A stretch of 64,000 bases of DNA from Lachnospiraceae bacterium (GTDB taxonomy: Bacteria > Bacillota > Clostridia > Lachnospirales > Lachnospiraceae). Under the pieces are notes generated by a model. It did not search any database. It saw nothing but the letters and a program-made list of their open reading frames with translations, and was not told the DNA's origin. A program made the translations under genes and the position numbers. Below are positions 31,356 to 57,908 of the stretch, piece after piece. Where the stretch lies: the NCBI GenBank assembly GCA_910575105.1, contig CAJTDK010000004.1, positions 248,001-312,000 on the forward strand, given 5' to 3'. Numbering within the stretch: the stretch's first letter is position 1; every line of letters starts with the position of its first letter.

Positions 31356-31981
31356 CGCAGTTCAGCTCCTTCCATATTAAATTGAAATAATTCTTAAATT
31401 CCGGGGAATTCCGGCGGTTCAGCGGCGTATCCTGCTCAAGGCTGAAGATCAGCGGGATGGTCTGGCGTATGGATGCCGGCCGGCCGGACAGGATGATGAC
31501 GCGGTCGGCGAGAGAGACTGCCTCCGACAGGTCATGGGTCACGAGGAGAGCCGCCTTCTCCTCCTGTCGGATGATCTGTCCGATATCGTCCCCTACCGTC
31601 AGCCGGGTCTGGTAATCCAGGGCGGAAAAGGGTTCATCAAGAAGCAGGATATCCGGTTCCAATACAAGAGTACGGATCAGGGCGGCCCGCTGGCGCATGC
31701 CCCCGGACAGCTCGGACGGATGGGATTTTTCAAAATTTTTCAGTCCGTAGATATCTAACAATTCATGTGCCCTTGCTTTCGTTTTGGCTGAGAGCATATG
31801 CTGGACTTCCAGGCCCAGCAGGACATTGTGGTAGATGGTCCGCCATTCGAAAAGTTCATCGTGCTGCAGCATGTAGCCGATGTTGGTGGTGCTTTCTCTT
31901 AAGTATTTCCCATTGATCTTTATCAGGCCCTTTTCGGGCGATATGAGTCCGGCGATCAGGGAGAGAAGGGTGGATTTGCCG
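31348..31981 (-). pseudogene. ABC importer ATPase, C-terminal part (interrupted by the mobile element)
   Basis: In-frame from GKSTLLSLIAGLISPEKG at the junction (31980) through the Q loop (MLQHDELFEWRT), signature LSGGMRQRAAL, Walker B DILLLDEPFSALD and the switch His in LVTHDLSEA. The first half, up to the GPSGCG of Walker A, is at 57771-57908. Together they would make an ATPase of about 250 residues with a normal P loop GPSGCGKST. A re-initiating ATG at 31872 could make a 174-residue fragment, but it lacks the P loop. Confidence 0.93.
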
Positions 31982-32004
31982 ATGGTATAGTAGTGGAAAC
32001 AAGT
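31971..32004. other. Left attachment junction (attL)
   Basis: Host half GGTGGATTTGCC, then element half GATGGTATAGTAGTGGAAACA. The element half carries CGATG and GGAAACA, which are the inverse of CATCG and TGTTTCC in the right inner end. Confidence 0.8.
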
Positions 32005-32457
32005 GGGTCTGTTTTATCTAAATCAGACAAAGTATTTGAAGGAATGTTTGCTGATCAGAATGTGATGAAACAGTCCATATCTGCCAGGATACGCTATTAT
32101 GCGCGGAAGGAGAAAGTATCACAGCCCGAATTGGCTAAAGCTATTGGATGCTCTCGTGACACGGTATTTTCTTACATGAATAATAAGACTTCCGAAAGTC
32201 ATATGGATATAAATGTGTTGAAAAAGCTGGCAGAATATTTCGAAGTAGATGAATACTATTTCTGTAATGCTTATCATATATTTGTGGATTCTCAGAATGT
32301 GCCGGAAATTTTGAAAGAGTTAAGGAGAAAAGAGGGAGCCACACAGAAAGCGTTTGCTGATATGCTGGAAATATCGTTGGCATCATATAAAAATTATGAA
32401 CAGGGCAGGATACGGCTGCCGGAAAGGTATTGGAAGAAGATTTGCAGTCTGTTATAG
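31993..32457 (+). CDS. XRE-type regulator with two helix-turn-helix domains
   Basis: 154 residues from a GTG 12 bp inside the left end; an ATG at 32044 would give 137 residues, and no clear ribosome site decides. Domain 1 (about 30-85) has KVSQPELAKAIGCSRDTVFSYMNNK; domain 2 (about 105-150) has GATQKAFADMLEISLASYKNYEQGR. Two HTH folds in one chain could bind two half-sites. As the first gene beside attL it probably regulates excision or element genes. A terminator follows. Confidence 0.8.
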   Translation: METSGSVLSKSDKVFEGMFADQNVMKQSISARIRYYARKEKVSQPELAKAIGCSRDTVFSYMNNKTSESHMDINVLKKLAEYFEVDEYYFCNAYHIFVDSQNVPEILKELRRKEGATQKAFADMLEISLASYKNYEQGRIRLPERYWKKICSLL

Positions 32458-32541
32458 GAGTGATTCTTTTTGGGATGGAAATATAGCAATGGAAGAAAGA
32501 TGCGGCTAATTTAATCAAATATACACTTTATTCAATTGGTG

Positions 32542-32583
32542 ACGTCAGATATTAATTTCGTTTGAAATATATCTGGCGTTTTT
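32542..32583 (+). terminator. Terminator after the XRE regulator gene
   Basis: ACGTCAGATAT pairs with ATATCTGGCGT, followed by TTTT. Confidence 0.75.
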
Positions 32584-33045
32584 CGATGCCAAAAGCAGTC
32601 TATAGACCGCTAAAAGTCGAAGTTTTCGGGCAATCTGAAGGTAGAACAAATGGAGCAGTTCCATAAGGGAGAGGAAATTTAATGACTATGTCTGAGGTTG
32701 GAAAGTGCATGAGATGGCAAATCACAGGAAAAGCATATAGAAGGCGGCAGAAATGCTAAATTATGTGCTGATGAAAATAATAATAAACAGACACAACTAT
32801 CCATCTGTATCTGTCAACAATTTGAAAATGTATAAACTGTCAAGTTGCATAGTACTAAACTGTGCGTTATGTGGTGTGGAAAAGTAAAATCTTCCCGAAA
32901 CCCATCGCTATAAACACATCCATCAATACCAAAAAAACAGCGCTTACTAGACGCCATCTTTTGAGGCACTTACATTTAAAACGATATTTTTATTAGGGGA
33001 GGAGCTGATATTTTAAGTCCCTCCCCAAAGAGATAAAGTATTAGT
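32584..33045. other. Non-coding stretch with gene debris
   Basis: No supported gene. Short in-frame scraps (for example MTMSEVGKCMRWQITGK at about 32681) follow a ribosome-like GGGAGAGGAAATTTA but stop within 26 codons. A GC-rich hairpin AGGGGAGGAGCT/AGTCCCTCCCC sits at 32995-33026, just past the stop of the minus-strand gene, without a T run. Confidence 0.4.
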
Positions 33046-35157
33046 TTAATCGTATTGTTCTGTAGGAGTTTCTCTTGATGTATATACATGCGGCCTGTAT
33101 GAGGTTGAGATTTCCGGTGGCAGGCTATTATAATTGATTGTAATACTTTGGTCAATTCCTTTTAATTGTTCAAAAAAAGCTTTCGCGTCCGGGGACGGGA
33201 AGGTGTTATCTGTTTTTTCATCTATGATTTCTTTATAGTTTTCTTTTAGTTCGATTCCCATAAATGCATAGGGATTACCTCCCGAGCGGCTTGTATGGGG
33301 CCTTTTATATTCAAAAGCTGCGCACAATTTTAATGTTTTTATAAACATCCTTTTGGTCAGGGCAGTACCTGCATATAAGTGATCATAAAAGTAGCAATAT
33401 GCTTTATGCAGTTCTTCAGCAGTAGTGAATACAGAAGTTTCCTTCTTTTCCATGCAGCACAGGCTGATAAATTCATTCAGAATACAGTCATGTTTGATGA
33501 CGGTGTGTTTGGTCTTTTTTTCTTTCATATTTGAGATTGCGTTGATCTGACAAAGACCATATAATGATAACTTTAAACGGAGCCAGTCATATGGGTCGGG
33601 GCGGAATGAAGTAGTTTTTGTGTTGGATGTATGGCTATCAAGTGTATGGTTATTAGGTGTATTATTGCAGGATGATTTTTGAGTGGTCATATCATCAGAA
33701 TCAGCAGTATAAGTTGTTTTGGAATTAAGAAAAGTTAATTCAATGCATGGATAATTGTTTTTCAAATACACAAAATCTTCATGCGAATTTGCAACACAGA
33801 TAATGGGAAGAGTGTTTGTGTAGGTTATTTTTCCCAATAGATCATCATTATAACAAATAGGTTTTCCTGTAATAATTTTTTTGAGCGTCTTTATCTCTTC
33901 ATCAATATATAAGTGATCTATTTTGTCTATGAAAAAATATTTTTTGCCAGAGGCTTGATATGAGCATAATTCTGGAATTGCTGCAGGAGCGGTAATCTCC
34001 CTGAAACTATGGTGTGGCATTTCGTAGGGCAGATTATTTCCCAGATTATAAAATGTCAGATCTAAAAAGTCATATACTAATTGCTTGTTCCCAGAAATAC
34101 ACTGGACGATAAATAGTTTTCTTGTCATATGTTCGCAGCTGGAGATATTTGCAAATAATGTGGCCCAGCAATTTAGCATCTGAAGATTCCCTGTTGTTAT
34201 CCGATAAAGGATATCTGATATTTCAGGTGTGATTTGAGGGTCATTTATAGAATGGATTTGGATTGCGTTACATTCTTTCAGGCGTTTTGGGACTTCATTT
34301 TCTGGCAGTAACGATACAAGAAAACATTTATGAAGCTCGGAATATCTGAATTCAAAATGGCGGTGATTGTTCATATCCTGGGCAAAGATGACGGCAGTGT
34401 CCCTTAATGGTTTTTGGATATAATTATGGGTGAGATAACTTCTGCATTGTCTGAACAACTGCTTTAAAAGTACAGGATTTTTGGGGTAGGGTAATCTCCA
34501 GATGCGGAACAATTCTTTTATACTGTTAGTGGATAGGCAAATAAGATAATCTTCGCAATATGTAAACAAATTTCCGCATATTGTGAAAAAAGAATTTTCT
34601 GGGGCATCAAATGGGGTTATCTGGCTCCCTTGCGCCAGTATATTTCTGTCCTTCAGATCATAAAACCGATACTTGTACAAAGTTCTGAAATATAGTGGAA
34701 TATTGTAGTTCAAATAACGTTTCAAACTGTTTATGAGTCTCTTTTCGAGGACGTTATTTTGTGTTATAGGAAGTCGGAGGGCCTGAAAAGCTGCTGGAAT
34801 ATTAATAAAGCTGATATGAGGATAGGGTATCAGTTTTAATGTTTTGTCCGCCATGACAAAGTACTCTAAAGGATTTTCAAAACAATGAATTAAGTCTGAG
34901 CAATCTTGGCGATGCGCATCACAAAAGCATTTAAACTCATAGTCATTATATAACAGAGTGGAAATGCATTCTTTATAATTTTTTAAACTGCTGAAGTATT
35001 CATTACGTATTTCAGAGGGCTTGGATATTTTGTGAAGCCGGCGTTCCAACGCACGAAAATTGGATAGCTGAATTTGGGAAACAGAATTGTTCTCTGATGA
35101 ATTTTCCTTTGATGATATAGTGTCTGATGATGGAGTATAGGTGATAAGCATTCTCAT
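33046..35157 (-). CDS. Degenerate D5/SF3 primase-helicase-like protein
   Basis: 703 residues, AT-rich. The layout matches phage/plasmid D5-type superfamily 3 helicases: 'ELLFRI ... E'-type region, then a P-loop position reading CISGNKQL (353-360), followed by 'LDLTFYNLG', a Walker B position reading KKYFFIDKIDH (405-415), 'LKKIITGKPICYND', a sensor strand LPIICVANSHEDF (450-462) and a C-terminal helix-turn-helix region 'TAEELHKAYCYFYDHLYAGTALTKRMF'. Family members read GxxGxGKS/T and DE; here Lys is kept but Ser/Thr and the acidic Glu are lost, so ATPase activity is doubtful. It may be a DNA-binding or regulatory derivative. A Ser/Thr-rich linker is at 485-520. The family call is moderate. 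Confidence 0.5.
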   Translation of the reverse strand: MRMLITYTPSSDTISSKENSSENNSVSQIQLSNFRALERRLHKISKPSEIRNEYFSSLKNYKECISTLLYNDYEFKCFCDAHRQDCSDLIHCFENPLEYFVMADKTLKLIPYPHISFINIPAAFQALRLPITQNNVLEKRLINSLKRYLNYNIPLYFRTLYKYRFYDLKDRNILAQGSQITPFDAPENSFFTICGNLFTYCEDYLICLSTNSIKELFRIWRLPYPKNPVLLKQLFRQCRSYLTHNYIQKPLRDTAVIFAQDMNNHRHFEFRYSELHKCFLVSLLPENEVPKRLKECNAIQIHSINDPQITPEISDILYRITTGNLQMLNCWATLFANISSCEHMTRKLFIVQCISGNKQLVYDFLDLTFYNLGNNLPYEMPHHSFREITAPAAIPELCSYQASGKKYFFIDKIDHLYIDEEIKTLKKIITGKPICYNDDLLGKITYTNTLPIICVANSHEDFVYLKNNYPCIELTFLNSKTTYTADSDDMTTQKSSCNNTPNNHTLDSHTSNTKTTSFRPDPYDWLRLKLSLYGLCQINAISNMKEKKTKHTVIKHDCILNEFISLCCMEKKETSVFTTAEELHKAYCYFYDHLYAGTALTKRMFIKTLKLCAAFEYKRPHTSRSGGNPYAFMGIELKENYKEIIDEKTDNTFPSPDAKAFFEQLKGIDQSITINYNSLPPEISTSYRPHVYTSRETPTEQYD

Positions 35158-35499
35158 TTTCCTCCTTTTTACCTTGTGTACCTAAAATAAATATGTACGT
35201 AAAAAACTATTTATTAATTCGTATTAATTGTAATATTGGCGATATATTTTGTCAAATAATAAAAAATTACGGCAGTGTTAACATCTAAAGATGTATTGAC
35301 ATATCCCTGCTTTTCATCTCGCGGGATATAATTCTCCTCAGCTTTGTTGTGGAGAATTTCGTTTTTGATTTTTTCCTTTTTAAGTTTAATTTGGTTCTGA
35401 AATTGAATTTTACAATCCTGTTAACAACTTGGAAAGAACGAATTTGACAGGCAGGGAATAAAATAAAGTAAGACCTAATGTCAGGAAAGTGTGTTGTGA
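35158..35499. other. AT-rich divergent control region
   Basis: 342 bp between divergent genes. It has stems TATCCC/GGGATA (35301-35330) and ATTCTCC/GGAGAAT (35331-35357), a TTGACA at about 35297 and a TATAAT at 35328-35333 too far apart for one promoter. No gene is seen. Origin, operator or promoter use is possible. Confidence 0.35.
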
Positions 35500-35694
35500 A
35501 TGGCAAAAAAGAAACAAAAAATCAGAGTAGTAGTACATATGAATACAAACAGCAAAAAAGTTTTTAACACTGAGATTGTACAAACGTTTTGGGTTGAAAA
35601 AATAACAGCGAAGGTGCAGGAAAGAACAGAAACAGGAGAGGAGGCGCATACATTTATTAAGGAAATTGTCGAAAAGCCGGGAATGAATCAGTAA
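35500..35694 (+). CDS. Small basic hypothetical protein
   Basis: 64 residues, beginning MAKKKQKIRVVVHMNTNSKK, likely a small beta-rich protein. No family recognised. It has a fair start context (AGGAAAGTGTGTTGTGA) and lies upstream of the candidate oriT and the first relaxase module, which suggests an accessory role in the same unit. Confidence 0.45.
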   Translation: MAKKKQKIRVVVHMNTNSKKVFNTEIVQTFWVEKITAKVQERTETGEEAHTFIKEIVEKPGMNQ

Positions 35695-35780
35695 GTCAAA
35701 GAGGGTTTTGTTTTCTGGAGAATAGAAAATGCGGGGAGGGTGAGAATTAAAAAGTACAAACGTGTAAACGAAAGAGTAAG

Positions 35781-35827
35781 GTTACCGGAGGTAACGGATG
35801 CGGGAAATGTCCGACATTCCGTTACCT
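35781..35827. other. Candidate oriT hairpins upstream of the first relaxase module
   Basis: GTTACC-gga-GGTAAC (35781-35795) overlaps a longer stem: AGGTAACGGA (35789-35798) with TTCCGTTACCT (35817-35827). Three GTTACC/GGTAAC half-sites occur in 47 bp, just before the RHH and relaxase genes, as expected for an origin of transfer. No nick site is identified. Confidence 0.5.
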
Positions 35828-35858
35828 GCTCAATGATGCAAACACGAGGAGGATAAAA

Positions 35859-36134
35859 ATGGTAGAACAAGCTTTAAAAGAAAAAAAGATTACAATCAGG
35901 CTGTCAGAGAATCTGTACAATGAACTGAAAAAGGAAGCAGATGAAAAAAATATCAAATTTAGTGAATATGTCAGATGGAAGCTGGAAAACAGAAAGATGA
36001 ACACAGAGGCAATGCCGCAGACATGCAGGTTTATGACAACACTGAATACAGTGTTCAGCAGGTATGATATCAAAGAAGAAGACAAAAAAACAATTGGCGA
36101 GGAGGCAGGAAAGTTATGGCAGCTTTTCAACTGA
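35859..36134 (+). CDS. Ribbon-helix-helix (MobC/relaxosome accessory) protein
   Basis: 91 residues. N-terminal ribbon-helix-helix: KKITIRLSENLYNELKKEADEKNIKFSEYVRWKLE (about 9-43), the fold of MobC-type accessory proteins that bind oriT. The C-terminus is helical. ACACGAGGAGGATAAAA precedes the ATG. Its end overlaps the relaxase start by 19 bp, so the two are co-translated. Confidence 0.75.
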   Translation: MVEQALKEKKITIRLSENLYNELKKEADEKNIKFSEYVRWKLENRKMNTEAMPQTCRFMTTLNTVFSRYDIKEEDKKTIGEEAGKLWQLFN

Positions 36135-36589
36135 TCATTCCCGAGGGAAATTATGAAAATGACGATGCAGTAGACAGAGTGATAGAGTATGTTTGTCGCC
36201 TTAACAAGCCAAAACAGATAGGCGGATTAGGAGTATATCCGTTGCAGCCTGAGTATATGATTTGCCAGTTTAAAGCGGTAAAAAATTATTATGGAAAAAT
36301 CGCAGGAAAACAGATTTTTCATCTGATTATTTCTTTCGATAAAAGCCTTAATTTCAGTATAGAAGAGATTGTAGAAATGGGATACGCAATAGCGGCTTAT
36401 TGGGGAGCAGAACGACAGGTTGTTTTTGCTGTGCATGATGATACTCTAAATAAGCATATACACATAGTAATCAATTCGGTGGCATATACAAATGGAGCGT
36501 ACAAAGCGTTTTACGCTCTCGATGAGATAAGAGATTATATAGATTCAGTTGTGCAGGCAGAAATTGACAGAAAATGGTTTGGAAAATAA
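36116..36589 (+). CDS. Minimal relaxase (MobA/VirD2-like), module 1
   Basis: 157 residues, only the nuclease domain. The likely catalytic Tyr is Y25 in RVIEYVCR; the metal-binding HUH set is H107 (FAVHDDT) plus H114-x-H116 in NKHIHIVINS. Most relaxases of this class are 300-600 residues, so this one lacks any helicase, primase or C-terminal region and may act with other element proteins or be a remnant kept by selection. It follows the RHH gene and candidate oriT. Confidence 0.7.
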   Translation: MAAFQLIIPEGNYENDDAVDRVIEYVCRLNKPKQIGGLGVYPLQPEYMICQFKAVKNYYGKIAGKQIFHLIISFDKSLNFSIEEIVEMGYAIAAYWGAERQVVFAVHDDTLNKHIHIVINSVAYTNGAYKAFYALDEIRDYIDSVVQAEIDRKWFGK

Positions 36590-36841
36590 AATGAAAATAA
36601 GCAGTAAATAAATGTCTCTGTCGGTTCATATGTAGACGATCCGAGTGTAGAGATCCAAAGTTTCAAAATCGTCCCGCCTAATTAAAGCAGATTCTCATGA
36701 AGTTTGTGCGCAGACATAAATTATGAAGAGGAACCTGCATCATTCGTTTTGTGTGACAATGTTTCTTTAGTGTGTTTCTTTAGTGATTGCCAAAGTAAGA
36801 TGACAGAGATATAATATAGATAAGATACCGAGGAGGATATA

Positions 36842-37732
36842 ATGAAAAATAAAAGCGAAATCACATATCATAATAAAGATGTCCTGTCCAAGATATTAGC
36901 AGAAAATTTTAAGGATAAGTCCTTAAAAGTTTATGGGATTGATGTGCCAAAGATTAAGCAGATCTTACCCACTAATCTCCCGGAGATACAGGTAAATGAA
37001 ATGCGGCTTGACAATCTCTTCCTGTTAGAGGATGATTCCATAGCAATCATAGATTATGAGAGTGAAGTCAGATGGGAGAATCAGTTAAAATATCTGAATT
37101 ATATCGTGCGTATTCTGGAAAGATACAAAAAGGAAGAGCTGCCAAAACAGATCCGCATGATTGTTATTTATACGGCAGATGTGGAAATGGCTCCGGAAGA
37201 ATTTTCGGCGGGCTGTCTTACATTAAAGCTGGAGCAGGCATTTCTTCGGAAGATAAATTCTGAAAGCGAGTGGGAAGAAATAACAGAGAAACTTAAGGCA
37301 AAGCTGCCGTTATCGGATGATGAACTGATGAAGCTGATCATCCTGCCCCTTACCTACAAAGGGAAGGAGAGAAAGAAACAGGCGGTAAAAGAAGCGGTGG
37401 AGCTTGCAAAGCAGATTGCGGATAGCGAAAAGAAGACATTTGTATTGTCCGGGATTCTGGTTTTTGCTGACAAGATCATTGATGCAGATACGGCGAAGTA
37501 TATTAAGGAGGTTGTGCGTATGACACAGGTTGCAGAATTATTGTTAGAAGAAGGTAGAGAAGAAGGCAGGGAGGAAGGCAGGAAAGAAAGCAGAGTGCAG
37601 GGTATCAATACGTTGGTCGACAGTCTGAAATCACTTTTGATTCCTGATGAAACGATTGCAGCCCAGCTTATGGAAAGGTATCAGCTTACCAGTGATGAGG
37701 CTGATGCGTTTATCAGGCAGAGACAGATGTAA
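36842..37732 (+). CDS. Rpn/PD-(D/E)XK-like protein with EGREEGREEGR repeat
   Basis: 296 residues. The N-terminal domain has 'MRLDNLFLLEDDSIAIIDYESEV' (about 54-76), an Asp then Glu-x-Glu placed like the PD-(D/E)XK core of Rpn/transposase-like nucleases. The helical C-terminal part includes LLLEEGREEGREEGRKE near residues 235-252, a charged repeat typical of these Clostridial proteins. Function is probably DNA cutting linked to recombination; activity is inferred. ACCGAGGAGGATATA precedes the ATG. Confidence 0.65.
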   Translation: MKNKSEITYHNKDVLSKILAENFKDKSLKVYGIDVPKIKQILPTNLPEIQVNEMRLDNLFLLEDDSIAIIDYESEVRWENQLKYLNYIVRILERYKKEELPKQIRMIVIYTADVEMAPEEFSAGCLTLKLEQAFLRKINSESEWEEITEKLKAKLPLSDDELMKLIILPLTYKGKERKKQAVKEAVELAKQIADSEKKTFVLSGILVFADKIIDADTAKYIKEVVRMTQVAELLLEEGREEGREEGRKESRVQGINTLVDSLKSLLIPDETIAAQLMERYQLTSDEADAFIRQRQM

Positions 37733-37767
37733 AGATGTATTGAAAAACAGAAAGAAGAGGGAAAATT

Positions 37768-38751
37768 ATGACATTTATGAAAAGAATCAGTGTTGCGCTA
37801 TGTATAATATCAGCAATCATATTTGCAGTACCGGCAGATGTATCGGAATCAGTGGCACCGGGACAGATCGTGCTCACCGTGCAGGCGGCGTCCAAAGTCA
37901 AACTGAGTAAGACAAAGGCTGTAATTAAAAAGGGCAGCACTTTGCAGCTAAAATTGAATGGGACAAAGAAGAAAGCGAAATGGAGCAGTTCGGATAAGAA
38001 AGTTGCGGCAGTCAGTTCTCACGGCAAGGTGACTGCAAAGAAAAAAGGGACGGCAACAATTACGGCCAGGCTGGGTCAAAAGAAGTATAGGTGCAAGATT
38101 ACGGTAAAAGCAGTGAAGACACAGCAGACAGCACATAAGCATTCCTACACAGAGCGCGTTACTTCTCCCACCTGTACAAAGAGAGGATATACAACATACA
38201 GTTGTTCCGGCTGCAGCTATTCATATAAAGACAAATATACAGAAGCTTTTGGTCATAGCTATGCCAAAAATACAGTGAGTGCATCGAAGAATGGAAAAGG
38301 GTATACATTATATACCTGCAGCAGATGCCAGAAAAGCTATAAGGGAGATTATACCGATTATCAGCCGTCAGAATCACAGGTTTATGAGGATATTGTTGGA
38401 TTGAGGACGAGATATCCGCAGGGAATGAAATGGAACAATGATGATTATTACGGATGGAGAGGCGGGATATATTCCGGCGGATACGGGTGTGCGGGATTTG
38501 CGTTTATGCTCAGTGATGAAGCGTTTGGATATCTGCCCGCCCGTATGCATAAAAACTTCAGCGAGATCAGAGTAGGGGATATTGTCCGTATGAATAATGA
38601 CGGGCACAGTGTTATCGTATTGGAAGTAAACGGCAGTGGTGCAGTTGTTGCGGAAGGGAATCTCAATAACTCGGTTTACTGGGGAAGGCAGATCTCTTTT
38701 TCAGAGATTCTAAGTACAGGGACCTATGTGATGACAAGATATCCAGATTGA
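37768..38751 (+). CDS. Secreted protein: Ig-like (BIG2) domain plus NlpC/P60-like amidase domain
   Basis: 327 residues. Signal peptide with hydrophobic core SVALCIISAIIFAVPA and likely cleavage near VQAAS (about residue 35). Residues about 37-118 form a BIG2-type Ig domain (VKLSKTKAVIKKGSTLQL ... GKVTAKKKGTATITA). Two short Cys-containing repeats follow (HSYTERVTSPTCTKRGYTTYSCSGC and GHSYAKNTVS...YTLYTCSRC). The C-terminal 120 residues resemble an NlpC/P60 or CHAP amidase with the Cys in SGGYGCAGFAFML and His in NNDGHSVIVLE. It probably acts on or binds peptidoglycan outside the cell. Unusual cargo for this element. Confidence 0.75.
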   Translation: MTFMKRISVALCIISAIIFAVPADVSESVAPGQIVLTVQAASKVKLSKTKAVIKKGSTLQLKLNGTKKKAKWSSSDKKVAAVSSHGKVTAKKKGTATITARLGQKKYRCKITVKAVKTQQTAHKHSYTERVTSPTCTKRGYTTYSCSGCSYSYKDKYTEAFGHSYAKNTVSASKNGKGYTLYTCSRCQKSYKGDYTDYQPSESQVYEDIVGLRTRYPQGMKWNNDDYYGWRGGIYSGGYGCAGFAFMLSDEAFGYLPARMHKNFSEIRVGDIVRMNNDGHSVIVLEVNGSGAVVAEGNLNNSVYWGRQISFSEILSTGTYVMTRYPD

Positions 38752-38923
38752 TTTTAGAGGATAACAGGGCATTGTTTTGCAAAGATTTCACGCAGGACAA
38801 TGCCCGTATGTTGTAAGTATAGATGATTTGGTAAATAATTATCTGGATGAAAGAGGATTGATAGGATCCTTTGCAAATTTTCTGATATAATTCAAAATTT
38901 CCCGTTTATTTTGACAGTTCTAT

Positions 38924-39127
38924 TCAAAGTTTACTTTTTCTCTTAATGTATTCAAATACGGATTCTCTTGATATCTTCCATATCCTTCCGATACGGAAGG
39001 CCTTAATATCCCCTGAGTTTAACAGAGAGTAGGCAGAATTTCTGCCGATGGATAACAATTCGCAAAGTTCATCTACAGTGATTAAATCTGAAAGTTCAGT
39101 CTGATACATCATATTACCTCCAGTCAT
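38924..39127 (-). CDS. Excisionase-like HTH protein
   Basis: 67 residues. MerR/excisionase-type helix-turn-helix: LITVDELCELLSIGRNSAYSLLNSGDIKAFRIGRIWKIS, spanning about residues 14-52. It would act as recombination directionality factor or transcription regulator. GGTAATATGATG start context: two nearby ATGs; ATG at 39127 or 39112. It lies opposite an AT-rich region with a 19-bp palindrome. Confidence 0.8.
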   Translation of the reverse strand: MTGGNMMYQTELSDLITVDELCELLSIGRNSAYSLLNSGDIKAFRIGRIWKISRESVFEYIKRKSKL

Positions 39128-39171
39128 TAGAAATTTGATTTACTGTAATGTTAAGGCAGAATAATTTTAGA

Positions 39172-39190
39172 AAAAGTGTCTGACACTTTT
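39172..39190. promoter_or_regulatory. 19-bp operator-like palindrome upstream of the excisionase-like gene
   Basis: AAAAGTGTC-t-GACACTTTT: perfect 9-bp arms with one central base, 45 bp upstream of the gene start. Confidence 0.6.
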
Positions 39191-43372: not shown

Positions 43373-43390
43373 TATAGGTAAAGTAAAAAA

Positions 43391-49948: not shown

Positions 49949-49978
49949 CTTCGGCCCATATTTTACAGCGATTAAAAA

Positions 49979-49995
49979 GTGTTCAGTTTGGACAC
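49979..49995. promoter_or_regulatory. 17-bp palindrome, copy 3
   Basis: GTGTTCA-gtt-TGGACAC, one mismatch between arms, 47 bp from copy 2. Confidence 0.65.
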
Positions 49996-50077
49996 TTTTA
50001 GGGCGTGGGAAGGATAAAAGCGAAAATATCATCAGAAAGGCAGAAGGCGGCTTTCTGTTTCCAGGAAAGGATAACCT

Positions 50078-51028
50078 ATGGCAGGAAAAAATGTGATCAA
50101 AGAAGAACTTGCCAGAAAGGCAGGATGTATAGAAGAAAAGAACAGGGAAAATATATCGTCCCCTGCAAAAGAAGGTGAAGAAAAAGGAGGAGCAGGAGAT
50201 ATGGCAGGAGCAGGAAAGTATAGTAACAATGATGAATTTGTACGGCTGTTAAGGGCGGATGAGATTGAGTGCAGGGTGGCCATGGTCAATGAGAAGGGTT
50301 TAAGTCTTCTTCTGTTTAAAGATGCCCGTGTGGACCAGAAAATCTTAGATGAGACATTTACTCCTTTCGGATGGAGGAGGACCCACCAGAGCATTGACGG
50401 GAACCTTTACTGTATGGTGGAGATCTGGGATAAGGAAAAAGGTCAGTGGATAGCGAAGCAGGATGTAGGGACGGTCAGCTATTCGGAGAAAGAAAAGGGA
50501 CAGGCCTCGGATTCTTTCAAGCGGGCGTGTTTCAATTGGGGTCTGGGAAGAGAGCTTTATACTGCGCCATTTATCTGGATTTCGGCAGAAAAAGTGGATA
50601 TTAAGCCGAAAGGTGACCGCTATGTAACGTCAGAAAGATTTTCCGTCCAGTCAATATCCTATAATGAGCAGCGGGAAATCGTATCCCTTGTGATCATAAA
50701 CAGCAAGGGAAACAAGGTGTTTGAGACGGGAAAAAGGCAATGGCAGGGGCAAGAGGCCGGCAGAAACAGCATTGGAAGTAATGCCGTGAATGATAACGAT
50801 AAAGAAGCCGGTATTAATCCCGGCATCAGGAGTACCAATGCAGATACCGAAAACAGCAGCATTACGGATATCCAGCACAAGGCATTGGAAAAAGAATTAC
50901 AGCGTACAGGTGTGTTGCTGGAAACAGTGCTCGGAAGATACAGCATCTACAGCCTGGATGAAATGACAGAGGAAATCTATACCAAGGCGCTTAACAGTTT
51001 AAAGAGGACAAAGTCAAAAGCAGCATGA
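50078..51028 (+). CDS. Single-strand annealing protein (Rad52/Sak-like)
   Basis: 316 residues from ATG 50078; a second ATG at 50201 behind AAAAAGGAGGAGCAGGAGAT would give 275 residues and has the better site. Core: 'RVAMVNEKGLSLLLFKDARVDQKILDETFTPFGW', 'CMVEIWDKEKGQWIAKQDVGT' and 'KGQASDSFKRACFNWGLGRELYTAPFIW', the signature of Rad52-like phage annealing proteins. The C-terminus is low complexity. It pairs with YqaJ as a recombination module. Confidence 0.85.
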   Translation: MAGKNVIKEELARKAGCIEEKNRENISSPAKEGEEKGGAGDMAGAGKYSNNDEFVRLLRADEIECRVAMVNEKGLSLLLFKDARVDQKILDETFTPFGWRRTHQSIDGNLYCMVEIWDKEKGQWIAKQDVGTVSYSEKEKGQASDSFKRACFNWGLGRELYTAPFIWISAEKVDIKPKGDRYVTSERFSVQSISYNEQREIVSLVIINSKGNKVFETGKRQWQGQEAGRNSIGSNAVNDNDKEAGINPGIRSTNADTENSSITDIQHKALEKELQRTGVLLETVLGRYSIYSLDEMTEEIYTKALNSLKRTKSKAA

Positions 51029-51056
51029 TAAAGGCAATGAGCAGGAGGAAATAAAG

Positions 51057-51695
51057 ATGAGTGAAGGTAATCGTAATAAGAAGATAAGCCCCGTATGGGA
51101 AGAATTAAAGCAGAAGGTCAGGTTCCGGCTGATCAACAGAGAGCAGAACCAGGAATATCTAAAGAAGCATGTTCACCGGGAATATCTGGATCTCGCCGCA
51201 GTATTTGGAGTGGAGGCGGCAGATCTTAAGGCGGGGAAGGCCCTCATCCCGGTAACGGAAACGATGGCATCAGAATGGGGAGTTGCTGCGGATGATCTGT
51301 GGGCGGCGGCGCTTGCTAATCTGGAAGAAGAGAAATGCATAGTTGTAGATATCCGATACCTTATCCCGGGTGGCATGGAAATGAAGGGGGAAGACATAAA
51401 GATGTTCGTCTGCATGACACAGGACGGAAGCGGGAGTGGCGGCGCAAGGGCGATACTGAAGAAAGACCTGCTGAGACAGTTTGCAAAGGAGCATAAGGAG
51501 AAGATCTATATCCTGCCAAGTTCAATAAACGAAGTGCTCCTGGTGCCGGATGACGGGGAGGGCGCTGAGAATCTGCTGAAAGAGATGGTGCGGGAGGTAA
51601 ATGACGGTTTCAGGTATGTAACGCCGGAGGAATGGCTGTCGGATTCGGTGTATTATTATGACCGGGAAAAGAATGAAGTCAGGGTGGCGGCATAG
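51057..51695 (+). CDS. DUF5688-family protein
   Basis: 212 residues. Family blocks 'NREQNQEYLKKHVHREYLDLAAVFGVEA', 'IPVTETMASEWGVAADDLWAAALAN' and 'LPSSINEVLLVPDDG' are seen; usual members are larger, so the N-terminus may be short here. Function unknown; frequent on Lachnospiraceae mobile elements. GCAGGAGGAAATAAAG precedes the ATG. Confidence 0.85.
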   Translation: MSEGNRNKKISPVWEELKQKVRFRLINREQNQEYLKKHVHREYLDLAAVFGVEAADLKAGKALIPVTETMASEWGVAADDLWAAALANLEEEKCIVVDIRYLIPGGMEMKGEDIKMFVCMTQDGSGSGGARAILKKDLLRQFAKEHKEKIYILPSSINEVLLVPDDGEGAENLLKEMVREVNDGFRYVTPEEWLSDSVYYYDREKNEVRVAA

Positions 51696-51717
51696 GAGGA
51701 AAAAGGGAGTATGAGGA

Positions 51718-51757
51718 TTGAAAAAGAAGGACATTTGTAATATAATTGTATTACAAA
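51718..51757 (+). promoter_or_regulatory. Promoter and operator of the RelB-PIN pair
   Basis: TTGAAA at 51718-51723, 17-bp spacer, TATAAT at 51741-51746. The -10 lies inside a perfect palindrome with arms TTTGTAATA (51734-51742) and TATTACAAA (51749-51757), as expected for an operator that represses its own promoter. Confidence 0.8.
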
Positions 51758-51772
51758 AAGGAGGCGATTGTT

Positions 51773-52042
51773 ATGGCAAAAGAGGCAACTTTGCAAGTGA
51801 GAATGGATTCCGAGTTAAAGGAGCAGGCTGAATTACTATACAAGCAGTTGGGAACATCTTTTGCAGAAGCGGTAAGAATATTCGCAAGGCAGAGTGTGGA
51901 GGAGCAGGGAATGCCTTTTTCCATGCATTTATCAACAAACGGTAGGAAAAGAACATTGGGAATTGCTAATGGAAAATATAAGATTCCAGATGATATTGAT
52001 GCGAGTAATGATGAGATAGCAGAAATGTTTGGGGTGAAATAG
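51773..52042 (+). CDS. RelB/DinJ-type antitoxin (paired with a PIN toxin)
   Basis: 89 residues from ATG 51773 (AAAAAGGAGGCGATTGTT). N-terminal ribbon-helix-helix 'ATLQVRMDSELKEQAELLYKQLGTSFAEAVRIFARQ'. C-terminal half is less typical: 'NGRKRTLGIANGKYKIPDDIDASNDEIAEMFGVK'. The partner is a PIN protein, not a RelE-type toxin, so it is a mixed pair. Two bp separate the genes. Confidence 0.85.
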   Translation: MAKEATLQVRMDSELKEQAELLYKQLGTSFAEAVRIFARQSVEEQGMPFSMHLSTNGRKRTLGIANGKYKIPDDIDASNDEIAEMFGVK

Positions 52043-52044
52043 AC

Positions 52045-52448
52045 ATGAAAATCTTGCTGGATACGCATATTGCACTATGGGCGATTGCAGATACGTCAAA
52101 GCTTCCGGATAAAGTGATAAAGCTTCTCGAAGAGGAAAATAATGAAGTATTTTACAGTATGGCTTCTGTATGGGAAATTGCGATCAAGCATATAATTAAC
52201 CGGAAAACATGCCTGTATCAGAGGAAGAATTTGTACGGCTGTGTGAGGATACGGGATTTACCAGACTGCCGATAGAGAAAGAACACATATTTCTGTTAAA
52301 GACTTTATCACGGCCTGGTGACGCGCCAAAGCATAATGATCCATTTGACCGGATGCTGATAGCGCAGGCTAAATTTGAGGATTTAATGTTGCTTACCCAT
52401 GATTCTCAGTTTCCATATTATGGAGAAAAATGTGTGATAAATGTCTGA
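52045..52448 (+). pseudogene. PIN-domain (VapC-like) toxin, frameshifted
   Basis: The start MKILLDTHIALWAIADTSKL carries the first catalytic Asp and 'SMASVWEIAIK' the Glu. The frame goes wrong after INRK at about 52205: adding one A in the AAAA run gives ...NRKN-MPVSEEEFVRLCEDTGF..., which continues to 52448 with 'HNDPFDRMLIAQA' (Asp) and 'LLTHDSQF' (Asp). All four acidic residues would be present in an unbroken copy. As read, the toxin is split and probably inactive, or the slip is a sequencing error or programmed shift. Confidence 0.85.
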
Positions 52449-52468
52449 GTTGGTTCACTTATATTACG

Positions 52469-52506
52469 AGCCGGGAATCGAAAAACAGGTTCCCGGCTTT
52501 GCTTTT
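52469..52506 (+). terminator. Terminator after the RelB-PIN pair
   Basis: AGCCGGGAA-tcgaaaaacagg-TTCCCGGCT, then TTGCTTTT. Confidence 0.8.
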
Positions 52507-52563
52507 GAGAAGAAATGTTTTAAAGCAGTAAAAAAGAGGGCGGTCTGAAAAGGACAAATCGGC

Positions 52564-55110
52564 TTAGATGAAGCTGTATGTTGTATTAATTTTAAATTTT
52601 TTCATCGTATGGATAAAGTCCTGTATTCGTTCTATATCTGAATCGGATATATTTTTCTGGTCAATAAGGGTGTCACAGATTTCCGCTAATATTTGATCGG
52701 GGCGGATATCAGAATGAAGGATATCCAAAAACGGATAAGCAATCGCTGTACAATAAAAAAACAGTACAGTAGTATTAGAGGAACAGACACTATTTTGAAA
52801 TTGTTTGTATAACTCTTTATATTCGTTGACAAATTGACCTGGTTGTTCAGTGGTAAAAGGGTCTTTAATGCTGCTTTCCGCAGGTAGTTTTATGTCGTAA
52901 TAAAATTTCCACAGACGGGCTTTGAATGATAAATTCCAATCGGAACCCAGCTCAGAAAATTCCTCTGAATTCGTTAAGTTATGAAAATCTTCATTGGCTT
53001 TGCTTATGGCTTGCTCTGAATATTTACGTATACATGATAAATAATAATAAATCATCCGATAATAGCAGAAAATTGCAATGTTTTTTCTGGGAGGGGTGGT
53101 TAAAAAAGCATATAAACTTTTCAGGGTGTCATTTAAAAGCCTTGATCCAATAGATGGGCCAGGTATGACGAGAGTAATAACTTGTTTTAATAATAAAGAA
53201 TCTATCGCATCCATAATAAAGTTATATAGTTTTTCAAGAAGGGGCAGAAATAATTTATGCTGTGTTGGGGAAGCCTGCATCTGTGACATTATTTCGGGAA
53301 GAAGATCAATGGCGCTGTTAAGGGTTTTAACAGGTGAGTCAGCCAGGGCAAAATCAATATGTAACTGGAAAATCTTTCGATCCAGTAATTTACAGGATGG
53401 CACCAGATCTTCTTTTATGCCCTGTCTATTTTTGTAAATATACAAGCGGTACAAAATATTTTGTGCATCGCAAGTATTGCCTAACCGAATAAAATGTACA
53501 ATAAATTCGCTCAATATCTGATTCCACTCCAGGAAGGCTTCTTTATCATCCTTCGAAGGCCGTGTTTTCATTTCTGTCATCTGGAAATGGAAACGGTATA
53601 TCATTGTTACCGTATGTTCATATAAAGAACGGTAGGTTTGCTGCAGTTTTTGGCCTTCAGAAATATAAGCAAGATTTTGGGAAATCCGTTTTCGGTAATC
53701 CTTATAATTTATCGGATATTGCTGCCAGATAATATCCGCGATGATCGCAGGCATCTGCAACATCTTATTTTTATGGTCTGTATATTGCAGGAGATCTAAA
53801 TCTATAGCTTTGTTTATATCTTCTGGCGCAATTTCTTCTTCTAATACTGGTTGAGAGATTTCATTTTTAGCCAGTATGGAAAGTTTAGAGCCTGTGGTCT
53901 TGAGAAATTCTTCGTCGTAATCTTCAAGTATGCGCGCTGCCAGAGTTTTGACTGATAATTCGGATTTCCTGTTGTCGCTTTGGTAGGAGGCATGAATTTT
54001 CGGATTCATATCCAGATGCCAGGATTCGGTATCCAGCAGTTTATCCAGATTGAACGTGTCAGGGCATTTGCGGAAACATTTAGCTATCAAAGTCATTATG
54101 AAAGGATTATATGACACAATCTGGCATACGTTCCTGAGTACATTATCACTAAGAGCTTTTTGGGGGCAATATTCTCTAAAAATCAGTGATAAATTTTCGA
54201 CAGGACGTTTATCCAGGTTTATCGAAGCGAAAGCTTTGGAAATACCCGTCGTTCTTGTAGTGATGACAATTCTTAGTTCTACATCCATCAAGTTTTTCTT
54301 TATAAAGGAAAAATCTTCATCTTTTATAAAAGGGATGTCTATTACCAGTAAGGAAAAAGCAGTTTTCTCTTTCAATATCTTTAAAATGTCTTCGCTTTTC
54401 GTGGGCAAAACATTGTTGTTATTTTTAGCTTCAGCAGAAGGAGTGCCGTTTTTATTTATGAAATCTATGTATTGTATCCGGTCAGCTAACGGGATGCCGG
54501 GGTGCTCGTCCAGCCAAAATACATTGTTCCAATTGCCTAGATGGTGGACACAGTACCTGACAAGCTGGGTTTTACCGGAGGCCGGCTGGCCGGTGACAAA
54601 GACTATATTATGCGATTCTAAAAGCCGGCATAGTCGGGTTTCTTTCGCTTTCCAAGGTATGTAATTAATGTGAAAGGATTTATCGTTAGAGTTAAAAAAA
54701 ACAAATTCTTCATCTGACCCTGTGAAATGCGAAAGGACAAGAGAATGAATCATTGTACCGATAGACAGATCTGAGCAGCTATCAGAATTATATTCTAGAA
54801 AAAGTTTTTGAATTTTCTCGGTTATTTGAAAAATATATGGTTTTATGTTTAATTCCGGATTGAAAAATCTTAAATTGTCTATATCCCAATTAGTGTCACT
54901 TAAATCTGTAATCATTGCTATTCGGTTGGGAGACAGTTTATGACCTTGATATATATTATACAAAAAGGAATTAGAAAGAGTGTTTTCTGAAGCGCCTGCA
55001 GCTTCGCCTAACAGAAAAAGAGTGACATTCTCTATATTAAGGCCACGCGGATTTCCAAGAGAATTCTGTATATAACTGACAAGTTTTTGTAAAATGGTTT
55101 GTTCTGTCAT
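52564..55110 (-). CDS. STAND NTPase (NB-ARC-like) with novel N-terminus and helical C-terminus
   Basis: 848 residues, AT-rich. The NTPase core is intact: Walker A GQPASGKT at 174-181, Walker B LLVID at 254-258, and an RNBS-B-like VITTRTT at 282-288. A GLPL-like position (SYNPFIM near 330) and a winged-helix region with an MHD-like 'MLQMPAIIADI' near 459 follow. Residues 1-160 have no recognised effector domain; 480-848 is helical, repeat-like. NLR-like bacterial STAND proteins sense phage and trigger an N-terminal effector, so a defence role is likely but inferred. ACGAACCTATGACAG start context with CCTCC upstream: GGAGGAAACGAACCT precedes the ATG on the minus strand. Divergent from a zinc-ribbon gene. 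Confidence 0.75.
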   Translation of the reverse strand: MTEQTILQKLVSYIQNSLGNPRGLNIENVTLFLLGEAAGASENTLSNSFLYNIYQGHKLSPNRIAMITDLSDTNWDIDNLRFFNPELNIKPYIFQITEKIQKLFLEYNSDSCSDLSIGTMIHSLVLSHFTGSDEEFVFFNSNDKSFHINYIPWKAKETRLCRLLESHNIVFVTGQPASGKTQLVRYCVHHLGNWNNVFWLDEHPGIPLADRIQYIDFINKNGTPSAEAKNNNNVLPTKSEDILKILKEKTAFSLLVIDIPFIKDEDFSFIKKNLMDVELRIVITTRTTGISKAFASINLDKRPVENLSLIFREYCPQKALSDNVLRNVCQIVSYNPFIMTLIAKCFRKCPDTFNLDKLLDTESWHLDMNPKIHASYQSDNRKSELSVKTLAARILEDYDEEFLKTTGSKLSILAKNEISQPVLEEEIAPEDINKAIDLDLLQYTDHKNKMLQMPAIIADIIWQQYPINYKDYRKRISQNLAYISEGQKLQQTYRSLYEHTVTMIYRFHFQMTEMKTRPSKDDKEAFLEWNQILSEFIVHFIRLGNTCDAQNILYRLYIYKNRQGIKEDLVPSCKLLDRKIFQLHIDFALADSPVKTLNSAIDLLPEIMSQMQASPTQHKLFLPLLEKLYNFIMDAIDSLLLKQVITLVIPGPSIGSRLLNDTLKSLYAFLTTPPRKNIAIFCYYRMIYYYLSCIRKYSEQAISKANEDFHNLTNSEEFSELGSDWNLSFKARLWKFYYDIKLPAESSIKDPFTTEQPGQFVNEYKELYKQFQNSVCSSNTTVLFFYCTAIAYPFLDILHSDIRPDQILAEICDTLIDQKNISDSDIERIQDFIHTMKKFKINTTYSFI

Positions 55111-55290
55111 AGGTTCGTTTCCTCCAATAGTTTTAGCTTGTTTTATTGATCTTTGTTATTCGTTTGGTTTAGATATTTAACATTTCATAATTATAACATA
55201 GTTTTGTATTTTTGGCGCACCTTAGTGTGAATGCTTTTTTTGAAAAAAGAGAATAAACTGAAAAAAACAAAAGAAGAGGAGGCAATAGCA

Positions 55291-55596
55291 ATGGAGAAAC
55301 ATTTTGAAGCAGTGAAAGAGTCGGGGACAAATCAAACAATCCCAATCTTTTGTCCTAAATGCGGACGACCGTGCTGTGTAATTTCTGATATGGATCTGCA
55401 GAGGTATAGGAGGGCGTGGAGCCTAGCAAAGATCAAACCGCTGCCTAATGAGCTGAAGAGAGAATATATCGAGCTATGTAACACGGGCTTTCGGTACATT
55501 AACATTTGTTGTCCTGATGAGGAATGTGGATATGATGGTGCGATTCTGGATGAAGAGATGTGGAACGAGATGAAGGGGCAAATGGTAGTATTCTGA
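55291..55596 (+). CDS. Small zinc-ribbon protein, divergent from the STAND gene
   Basis: 101 residues from ATG 55291 (AAGAAGAGGAGGCAATAGCA); an upstream ATG at 55231 lacks a site. Two Cys pairs: FCPKCGRPCC (about 22-31) and NICCPDEECGYDG (about 71-83), spaced like a zinc ribbon split by a helical insert. No other motif. It shares an intergenic control region with the STAND gene and might be its regulator, sensor or partner; that link is inferred. Confidence 0.7.
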   Translation: MEKHFEAVKESGTNQTIPIFCPKCGRPCCVISDMDLQRYRRAWSLAKIKPLPNELKREYIELCNTGFRYINICCPDEECGYDGAILDEEMWNEMKGQMVVF

Positions 55597-56056
55597 AGAC
55601 GGAATAAAATGATGAGAGGGGCCGCCATAGTTGCGGCTCTGGATTCATTTTGTATCAAAACTAAGTCTGTTTGGCATCATTTGTGTTTCATATAACCCAG
55701 TAATACAATAACCAGTTGTACTTAAAAGAAATATATCTTATAATGTCCTTAACGAACAGCAAACGTGGACAATGAATGCAGAAGAAAATTATACATCAGA
55801 CAATATATGCGCTTCCAGAGAGAAAACGTGCAGAATTAATTGACGTGCAGATTTACGACATGATTTCGACAAGCAGGACGCATAGGATGCGATTTTCAGA
55901 ATATATGGATATTTTTCGCTGAAAGTGCCGAAAAATTTTTATAATATACAAAAATCACCTTAGATATCAGTTAATACAGCCATAGAATGGCTATATTAGC
56001 AGTTGGATTTATGGATTAAGGTTAAATTGGTTGAATTATGACAAAAAAGAAAGGAA
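55597..56056. other. Spacer with one possible short ORF
   Basis: 460 bp. A GC-rich hairpin GGGGCCGC/GCGGCTCT is at about 55618-55639, past the zinc-ribbon gene. A 48-codon frame at 55776-55922 (MQKKIIHQTIYALPERKRAEL) has no good ribosome site. An inverted repeat AGCCAT/ATGGCT at about 55979-55993 lies upstream of the recombinase and may be a control site. Confidence 0.35.
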
Positions 56057-57703
56057 ATGTTTATGGTCATTTTCATTTACAGCAGAAAATCAAAATGGAC
56101 CGGCAGAGGTGACAGTGTGGAGAACCAGATTGCCATGTGCCGGGAATACATACAATATAATATAGAAGGAGCGGGCAAAGCGGATATTATAGAATATGAA
56201 GATGAAGGATATTCGGGGAAAAATACGAAGCGCCCCCAGTTCCAGAAGATGATGCAGGAGATCAGACAGGGGAACTGTGATTATCTGGTATGCTACAAGC
56301 TGGATCGATTAGGGAGAAATATTGCGGATCTGGCAAACCTGATTGAAACGCTGAACAAACTGGAAGTTTCTTTTGTCAGCATCAAGGAGCGCTTTGATAC
56401 TTCTACGCCGATCGGCAAGGCGATGCTTTATTTTGCGGGAGTTCTGGCGCAGATGGAGCGGGAACAGATCGCGGAGCGGGTACGGGATAATATGATTATG
56501 CTGGCGAGAAAGGGCAGATGGCTCGGGGGAAATACGCCGTTAGGATTCAGAGCAGAGGCAGAGGAAAAGGTGTCTATCAACGGCAGGAGCAAAAAATCTT
56601 TCCGCCTGACCGTGGATGAGGGAGAGATGAAGGTTGTGCGGTTTATTTTTCAGGAATATCTTAAAAACCAGTCCCTTGTGGGAATTGTAAAATATTTCCT
56701 GAGCCGCGATATCTTGACAAAAAGGGGAAAAGAGTATTCGACGACAGCGATCAAGGATATTCTGACGAATCCGGTATACTGCACAGCGGACAGAGACGCT
56801 TATCAGTATTTCTGGGAGCTGGGGTGCCAGGTGTGCATGGACGAGGAAGAGGCGGACGGAAGGTACGGATTGATCGGCTATGCGAAGACTTCGTCGTCTA
56901 AGTATAAGAATCAGGATAATGCCCCGGAGAAATGGATTATTGCCCTCGGAAGACACAAAGGTATCGTATCGGGGAAGGATTTCGTGAAGATCCAGAATCT
57001 TTTGAAAAGAAACAGCTCCAGAGGCGACAGTTGGCACAAGCCTCAGAATCCGGTGGCGCTGCTGTCCGGGATTTTGTACTGCTCCTGCGGGCATCTGATG
57101 CGGCCGAAGAATTATTCGGCAGAGCAGGTGACGGAAAAGGGCGAGCGGAAATTTTCTTATATCTGTACATATAAGGATCTGACCAACAAAGAGAAGTGCT
57201 CGGTGGCAAATGTCCAGGGGAATACGCTGGATGAGCTGGTCTGCCGGGAGGTGCTGCGCTATACGGACGAAAACTCAAATATTCATCAGATGCTTGAACA
57301 AGCAGCAGAGAGGATTCAGGATACAAAGAAAGACAAGGTATCGGATGCAGAAATTTTGGAGCAGGAGATACAGAAACGCAAAAAAGAAGTAAAAAACCTG
57401 ATTACGGCCATTGCCAAATCTGGGGGAGATGAAGCGTTCCTTGGCCAGATCGAGCAGGAGATCACGAAGCTCAACGAAGAATGCGCCGCCCTGGAAAAAG
57501 AGAAAAGCGGAATAAGCGAAGAAGGATGCAGTATCGGCAGCGATAAGCAGCAGCTTGAAGTGCTGATGGAGCAGCTGTCTTCTTTTCAGAATCTGTTCGA
57601 CACTCTGTCGGTAGTGGAGAAGAGGGAGTATCTGCGGATGATCCTCAGCAAAGTTGTGTGGGATGGGGAGGAAGCCCATATTTTTATCTATGGCAGCCAT
57701 TGA
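56057..57703 (+). CDS. Large serine recombinase (integrase of the element)
   Basis: 548 residues. Resolvase catalytic domain (4-150) with the nucleophile Ser9 in IYSRKS, 'DSVENQIAMCREYI', 'DYLVCYKLDRLGRNIADL' and 'TPIGKAMLYFAGVLAQMEREQIAERV'; recombinase domain (160-275); zinc ribbon 'CSCGHLMRPKN ... CTYKDLTNKEKCS' (about 350-390); coiled coil near 420-490. It cuts and rejoins attP and attB with a 2-bp overlap. Last gene of the element, 66 bp from the right junction, as usual for this type. ACAAAAAAGAAAGGAA precedes the start. Confidence 0.95.
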   Translation: MFMVIFIYSRKSKWTGRGDSVENQIAMCREYIQYNIEGAGKADIIEYEDEGYSGKNTKRPQFQKMMQEIRQGNCDYLVCYKLDRLGRNIADLANLIETLNKLEVSFVSIKERFDTSTPIGKAMLYFAGVLAQMEREQIAERVRDNMIMLARKGRWLGGNTPLGFRAEAEEKVSINGRSKKSFRLTVDEGEMKVVRFIFQEYLKNQSLVGIVKYFLSRDILTKRGKEYSTTAIKDILTNPVYCTADRDAYQYFWELGCQVCMDEEEADGRYGLIGYAKTSSSKYKNQDNAPEKWIIALGRHKGIVSGKDFVKIQNLLKRNSSRGDSWHKPQNPVALLSGILYCSCGHLMRPKNYSAEQVTEKGERKFSYICTYKDLTNKEKCSVANVQGNTLDELVCREVLRYTDENSNIHQMLEQAAERIQDTKKDKVSDAEILEQEIQKRKKEVKNLITAIAKSGGDEAFLGQIEQEITKLNEECAALEKEKSGISEEGCSIGSDKQQLEVLMEQLSSFQNLFDTLSVVEKREYLRMILSKVVWDGEEAHIFIYGSH

Positions 57704-57739
57704 TCTTAAAAAAGCGGAGAAATATCAGTGGCTGCCTGC

Positions 57740-57774
57740 CGGAATGTTTCCGCTTCTGACACATCGCATTGCCG
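57740..57774. other. Right attachment junction (attR)
   Basis: Element half TGTTTCCGCTTCTGACACA-TCGCA-TTGCCG, then host half CAGCCCGAAGG. Arms TGTTTCC and CATCG are inverses of GGAAACA and CGATG in the left inner end; the joined 50-bp site has one axis between the two T of TTGCCG. Confidence 0.8.
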
Positions 57775-57908
57775 CAGCCCGAAGGCCCAACGATCGCCAC
57801 GAACTCGCCCTTATTCAGGGCAAATGAGATGTCGGTGAGCGCAGGCGTCTCCCCGTCCAGCGTGTGATAAGTATAGTGGATGTTTTTCAGTTCCAATACT
57901 TGCTCCAT
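57771..57908 (-). pseudogene. ABC importer ATPase, N-terminal part
   Basis: Reads MEQVLELKNIHYTYHTLDGE through ALTDISFALNKGEFVAIVGPSGCG, the first 46 residues of a NitT/TauT-type ATPase, then runs into the element for 28 unrelated codons. ACAGGAGGTATCT precedes the ATG. The rest is at 31348-31981. The host promoter would still transcribe this stub. Confidence 0.93.

Follow-up and report, generated by a model that had tools for sequence, protein, structure and literature searches.

The window, a stretch of 64,000 nucleotides from a Lachnospiraceae bacterium (contig CAJTDK010000004.1, positions 248,001 to 312,000), contains an element of 25,793 bp (window positions 31976-57768), which splits the gene of one ATP-binding cassette (ABC) importer ATPase on the minus strand at the Walker A motif. 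Very probably, this is a site-specific integrative mobile element whose integrase of 548 amino acids (aa) belongs to a clade dedicated to one ATPase ortholog and exchanges the dinucleotide TT. The coordinates of all features are compiled in Table 1.

The sequence TTGCCG is present at both junctions, starting at positions 31976 and 57769. Joining the flanks in silico yielded a single open ABC ATPase of 255 aa (...IVGPSGCGKSTLLSLI...), in which the motif GPSGCGKST is restored. The original prediction of one ATPase split at Walker A by an insert of 25.8 kb is thus borne out. Of the range it had given, 31971..57908, the end had to be revised, as 57908 is the start codon of the ATPase and the element ends at 57768. 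The serine integrase expected at the end of a site-specific element was found at the right end as a large serine recombinase. It matches PF00239, PF07508 and PF13408 above the cut-offs, the order of the domains is that of large serine recombinases, and its stop codon at 57703 is 65 bp away from the core. Close to the left end, at 32-37 kb, the G+C content of the element is about 0.36, compared to 0.50-0.54 at 20-27 kb; it reaches 0.5 in parts of the element, and that of the right flank is just 0.44-0.46.

In all five other genomes of the genus, the ATPase is whole and 93-98% identical. In the corresponding loci (L170, L171, L172/L153, L154 and L155), the two flanks of the window (ending at 31981 and starting at 57769) are adjacent in each case and overlap by exactly 6 bp, namely TTGCCG. 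The uninterrupted ATPase that had been predicted for close relatives therefore exists with the expected join, and the proposed inactivation of the importer ATPase agrees with a gene that is split here and whole in these five genomes. In a family sample of 397 genomes, a match to the ATPase (E ≤ 1e-55) was found in 211; the matches inspected were a listed part and those of 63 genomes that were rerun. Five of the 211 (G146, G156, G245, G313 and G328) look as if they contained only paralogs, which are 41-47% identical. In nine genomes (G000, G262, G104, G176, G204, G021, G202, G028 and G347), the ATPase is split at Walker A and accompanied by an integrase of the clade described below, and all nine clade integrases of the sample are located at this site. 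In G123 and G105, the ATPase is cut by contig ends; in G123 (end of contig 11, L173) the cut is exactly at residue 46 of Walker A, which suggests an unassembled insert. G055 and G152, whose matches start near residue 76, were considered as split ATPases and rejected: when read out, both prove to be uninterrupted and to have a longer loop.

A scan of one genome per species yielded 78 integrase loci. In a quick tree of 94 rows, calculated without bootstrap, 67 of these loci, the window and G104 form one clade of 69 integrases (SH-aLRT 100); the other 11 loci (L071 and L077-L086) fall outside. L094, L095 and L097-L101 were omitted from the 69, as they represent the same insertions as L017, L023, L058, L057, L060, L065 and L072. 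Delimiting the clade by identity alone was rejected: L117 and L119, with identities of 44% and 43% across about 320 aa, are located in a sigma gene, and the tree was therefore used to define the clade. All 69 clade integrases are located in this ATPase gene. The N-terminal half of the ATPase lies beside the integrase in 65 of them, L030 has a weaker match to this half, and L037, L047 and L051 are found with the C-terminal half. Where seen, the C-terminal half is 43-86% identical to that of the window, compared to 42% for the best paralog in the window genome. The integrase clade thus appears to be dedicated to one ATPase ortholog in Lachnospiraceae.

The 66 genomes behind the 67 loci were searched with the joined ATPase in batches of 49 and 17. 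In the first batch, 44 genomes gave a match, most of which begin at residues 29-47; three begin at residues 76-77 (G420, G421 and G423), and G414 reads through with a stop. In the second batch, one genome was without a match and two (G454 and G460) had paralog-like matches only. An assembly artefact might be suspected in a draft genome of 86 contigs; given that both junctions lie inside one contig and that the same structure occurs in dozens of separate assemblies, such an error is exceedingly improbable. In locus L052 (9085-19926), a clade integrase adjoins the C-terminal instead of the N-terminal half of the ATPase, with about 8 kb to the latter; this arrangement is rearranged or stacked.

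It had been proposed that the conserved P-loop might give related integrases access to many ABC genes, a notion that is contradicted by the location of all 69 clade members found in a single gene. An integrase recognizing the Walker A coding sequence as such would be in line with a site that is a conserved motif and with the TT core, which all 20 examined paralogs have at their lysine codon. However, of the 44 ABC matches in the window genome, this ortholog alone is split by the clade. Furthermore, potential sites were scored with weight matrices derived from the host sides of hit sites, with the window left out and the other hit sites included. The window scored 59.0, 24 hit sites 50-66 and 31 whole orthologs 43-61, whereas 20 paralogs, which are part of the 43 other ABC matches in the window genome, did not exceed 35.7. 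Shared ancestry contributes to this gap, and it is therefore the field result of 69/69 that carries the argument. An integrase with general access to P-loops is thus very unlikely, and the conservation of the P-loop seems to preserve the site from species to species rather than to multiply the targets.

In the predicted circle junction, 16 of the first 25 positions pair about the two T; the corresponding numbers for attB, attL and attR are 5, 6 and 6 of 25. The junctions of related elements, of which 65 distinct right and 26 distinct left ones were compared, have recurring arms, namely GTTTCC at -23..-18, GGAAAC at +19..+24, and CCAT/ATGG nearer to the core. In attR (n = 65), the conservation is 0.92 for G at -23, 0.98 for T at -22 and 1.00 for C at -19; in attL (n = 26), it is 1.00 for both G at +20 and A at +21. 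The symmetry of attP exceeds chance, as the same arms recur across the junctions of the clade, and the attP that had been postulated for the encoded recombinase is corroborated by these arms.

A TT is located at the lysine codon, as placed by alignment, in all 65 distinct attR. It is also common to all 24 attL-attR pairs (23 distinct), where the TT of attL is given by construction, because the attL cores were found with a pattern ending in TT. Most pairs share TTGCC(G) or TTACC(G). Shorter shared cores occur in L040 (TTGC), in L041 and L060 (TTA) and in L075 (TTTA), and the junction pairs of L074 and L057/L098, which are two independent elements, have nothing but TT in common. Most simply, the exchanged dinucleotide would be TT, which complements the invariant AA at the start of the Walker A lysine codon (AAA/AAG), because 65/65 attR read TT and two independent elements share just these two bases; the original prediction had named the same crossover. 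Later mutation could likewise shorten the stretch shared by attL and attR. In L037 (4540-4610), the element is reversed: the integrase side is joined to the C-terminal half of the ATPase, and next to the arm on that side AA replaces the TT of the other elements. This fits a role of TT as polarity signal; the other end lies beyond the contig. A 2-bp crossover, a near-symmetric attP, a short attB and precise junctions, as expected for a large serine recombinase, were all found by comparison alone.

According to the proposed mechanism, the element would enter as a circle, and the recombinase, exchanging TT, would recombine the near-symmetric attP (about 50 bp) with a single attB, namely the Walker A codons in the ATPase gene of one ABC importer. 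Integration would split the ATPase, and precise excision would leave the gene whole again. In this manner, one integrase clade would deliver elements that differ greatly in size and cargo to the same ortholog. We infer that the integrase is active and that the circle forms. Besides the TT given by construction in attL, several observations weigh against this interpretation. A whole ortholog-like copy of the ATPase is present in two of the 66 genomes: in G416 (62%) as a second copy besides the split gene, and in G449 (60%), where a separate C-terminal half was not found. A circle junction was sought in viral contigs and none was found; the sole attP-like junction seen is that of L051 (11680-11760), which follows the integrase and seems to lie where two stacked elements meet. 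Relaxase is absent among the 25 of 39 Pfam families seen for the 38.5-kb element of G431, and the relaxase-domain genes of the window element are short (157 and 171 aa), which makes the route of transfer unsure. On another contig of G442, the genome of L051, locus L054 contains a second clade integrase (62.5% identical) that adjoins the N-terminal half; L051 and L054 are probably two elements stacked in one gene.

The precise rejoining expected at the junctions would also suit an intervening element with programmed excision, comparable to skin in sigK, which the host retains because the importer is restored under some condition when the element is excised in a regulated manner. Related integrases outside the clade lie in what we take, by eye, to be a sporulation sigma gene (12 loci: L103, L104, L105, L106, L110, L112, L113, L116, L117, L119, L121 and L122), and SigK was the best match of three sigma-gene peptides from such loci. 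Two further non-clade integrases, L102 and L118, are presumably located in a FeoB-like and a CpaF-like gene, as judged from peptides recognized by eye. However, the ATPase is whole in 5/5 other genus genomes and in most matches of the family sample. Moreover, the identities of integrase and host ATPase show little correlation, with a Spearman rho of 0.15 (65 loci) and 0.16 (29 loci) for pairs that are not independent; integrases that are about 80% alike sit in ATPases whose N-terminal halves are about 50% alike. Integrase and host gene thus co-diverge only weakly. The size of the inserts varies widely as well, from 2.4 kb (L057) over 24-25 kb (L011, L019 and L021) to about 38.5 kb (L040), where all values but the first were taken from contig positions. 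The same is true for the cargo. With double loci merged, relatives of the window genes were found in at least 7 (helix-turn-helix), 10 (DUF932), 12 (YqaJ), 13 (Erf-like) and 15 (DUF5688) other elements; these are lower bounds, because for most loci no more than 10 kb of the element is visible. No relative of the STAND-like protein of 848 aa was found in the compared elements. The elements of G431 and G410 share DUF932, YqaJ and DUF5688, and beside this backbone occur restriction, GTPase, RNA-ligase or toxin-antitoxin families; that of G410 also contains a relaxase and NikA. It is therefore unlikely that the host maintains the insert for regulated excision; the elements look mobile.

A prophage using the ATPase as attB would be in line with two protein types often met in phages, a RecE-like exonuclease and an Erf-like annealing protein, and with the match of the integrase to a phage integrase family in PHROGs. 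This identity was rejected for want of structural and packaging genes: a comparison of 10 element proteins with PHROGs gave no head or tail family, and only a weak terminase match (3e-7) of the HerA-like ATPase. In addition, viral contigs hold only seven integrase loci, all distant (24-41% identity) and none a member of the clade, and the best phage record is 35.7% identical. Taken together, a prophage is highly improbable. Three records of Clostridioides difficile of about 24 kb that are listed as plasmids (NZ_CP149669, NZ_CP149734 and NZ_CP149756) encode recombinases which are 35.5-35.7% identical; these records may be excised elements.

With respect to the transfer of the integrative element, Pfam gave a weak coupling-protein match for the HerA-like ATPase and no type IV secretion genes among the element proteins scanned, which were part of the open reading frames. 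Transfer between cells by mobilization is a weak guess, made because relaxase domains occur in the window element and in G410. An Rfam scan of 30000-60000 gave no match. A large gene on the minus strand (33046-35157) encodes a protein of 703 aa without a Pfam match; this gene and the minus-strand gene at 52564-55110 look like cargo, possibly for defence.

Table 1. Features of the integrated element and the split importer operon in the window.
Feature	Position	Strand	Remark
Importer permease gene, same operon, whole in the window	30558..31355	-	Putative second docking site near 30664 (residue 231), as seen in relatives
ATPase, C-terminal part: Lys47 to stop	31348..31977	-	
Integrated element, one TTGCCG copy included	31976..57768	.	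25,793 bp
attL core TTGCCG	31976..31981	.	Predicted crossover TT 31976-31977
attP left arm (GCCGATGG... GGAAACA)	31978..32001	+	
Left-end helix-turn-helix gene	31993..32457	+	Relatives in at least 7 other elements
Small CopG/NikA-like gene and short MobA/VirD2-type relaxase-domain gene	35859..36589	+	
Second short relaxase-domain gene	39726..40241	+	
HerA/DUF87-type ATPase, 766 aa	40515..42815	+	
RelB-YoeB type toxin-antitoxin pair	46451..46982	+	
Recurrent backbone: DUF932, YqaJ/RecE-like exonuclease, Erf-like annealing protein, DUF5688	47349..51695	+	
848-aa protein, weak STAND/NB-ARC NTPase match	52564..55110	-	No relative in compared elements
Large serine recombinase, 548 aa; Resolvase, Recombinase and Zn-ribbon domains	56057..57703	+	Pfam
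attP right arm (TGTTTCC... CATCGCA)	57745..57768	+	
attR core TTGCCG	57769..57774	.	Predicted crossover TT 57769-57770, complement of the first two bases of the Lys47 codon
ATPase, N-terminal part: residues 1-46 and first bases of Lys47	57769..57908	-	Start codon 57908

In whole relatives, ATPase and permease form a two-gene operon, and a second docking site appears to be located in the neighbouring permease gene, for which 17 genomes show a cut close to one and the same codon. In 21 loci of these genomes (G057, G367, G398, G399, G262, G410, G384, G415, G442, G443, G106, G432, G105, G175, G253, G113 and G346), the permease is normal up to SQVF (residue 231; or SQTF/SQVL) and then departs from the family sequence within a few residues; examples are L171 (3056-4946), L170, L172, L155, L228, L213 and L226. 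The divergence is less abrupt in G442 and G346 than elsewhere. In six of the 17 genomes (G262, G410, G415, G442, G443 and G432), the ATPase is split as well. In ten (G398, G367, G399, G175, G253, G113, G346, G106, G442 and G443), a different family of serine recombinases (611 aa in L171) is encoded at most about 1 kb from the permease cut. This family occurs in 21 of the 397 family genomes (E ≤ 1e-100): in 14 on the contig of the ATPase within about 12 kb, in two more (G253 and G113) with a permease remnant in the same locus, and in five (G105, G194, G342, G054 and G064) on other contigs or far away. The permease is whole in 54 other loci, a non-random choice that includes doubles. In G345 (L177:3376-6695; L115), a member of the same ATPase family is interrupted at a different place, THDISEA, which lies about 150 residues past Walker A; the insert measures about 2.5 kb, and its integrase is a third, distantly related one (35% identical). 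The substrate was not indicated by NCBIfam, where the ATPase and permease matches are all below the cut-offs; the best models are of the SaoA/SaoP, SsuC and TauC types, with SaoA and SaoP being best for the whole relatives. Visual inspection revealed no recognizable binding-protein gene next to the operon in L207, L208 and L170.

It is conceivable, though rather doubtful, that the operon is a convergent docking station, used by the clade at the lysine codon of the ATPase, by an unrelated recombinase family at the permease codon and by a third integrase near the H-loop of the ATPase, and that loss of the importer is useful and not merely tolerated. If this were true, importer loss, perhaps reversible, would benefit elements or hosts, for example by shutting an uptake route. 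The results also point to one dispensable importer as a docking operon shared in gut bacteria, which may offer a natural landing site in hosts for which engineering is difficult. The clade provides 65 right and 26 left natural junctions, and its crossover is confined to two bases. Together with the sites in use and the paralogs left intact, these junctions are material for learning how a serine integrase picks one gene among dozens of look-alikes.

Like the skin-type elements in sigK, for which the literature search listed PMC5025042 and PMC5595907, the element has relatives of its integrase, as seen in the tree, that lie in a SigK-like gene; it differs in that another gene is interrupted, without a sign of programmed excision, and in that it is missing from most relatives. 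Diverse large serine recombinases sharing one conserved site within one gene have been described (Durrant et al. 2022, PMC10083194). As far as the main text of that study goes, a set of integrases on one conserved coding target is common to both cases and the target genes differ; this text, to the exclusion of its supplements, does not contain the terms 'ABC transporter', 'ATP-binding', 'transporter' or 'P-loop'. According to the accessible parts of further papers, integrative and conjugative elements (ICEs) and integrative and mobilizable elements (IMEs) of Firmicutes with serine integrases disrupt the dispensable genes rumA, hsdM, mutT, snf2 and MAFF2 (PMC5704250, PMC4701971, PMC7168690, PMC12904643; elements of this kind are reviewed in PMC5704250). 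The serine integrase at one end, the very short direct repeats, the dispensable target and the mobilization genes in some elements are in agreement with these ICEs and IMEs. In contrast, the target is another one, as no ABC importer gene is among those named in these parts of the four papers. Furthermore, unlike in the ICEs, conjugation genes were not found in the part of the open reading frames of the window element that was scanned, and its relaxase genes are short. In the literature searched, which did not extend to subscription papers and supplements, there is no report of this ATPase target or of a doubly targeted importer. The element therefore belongs to a known class of gene-targeting serine-integrase elements, and the doubly targeted importer operon is its unusual part.

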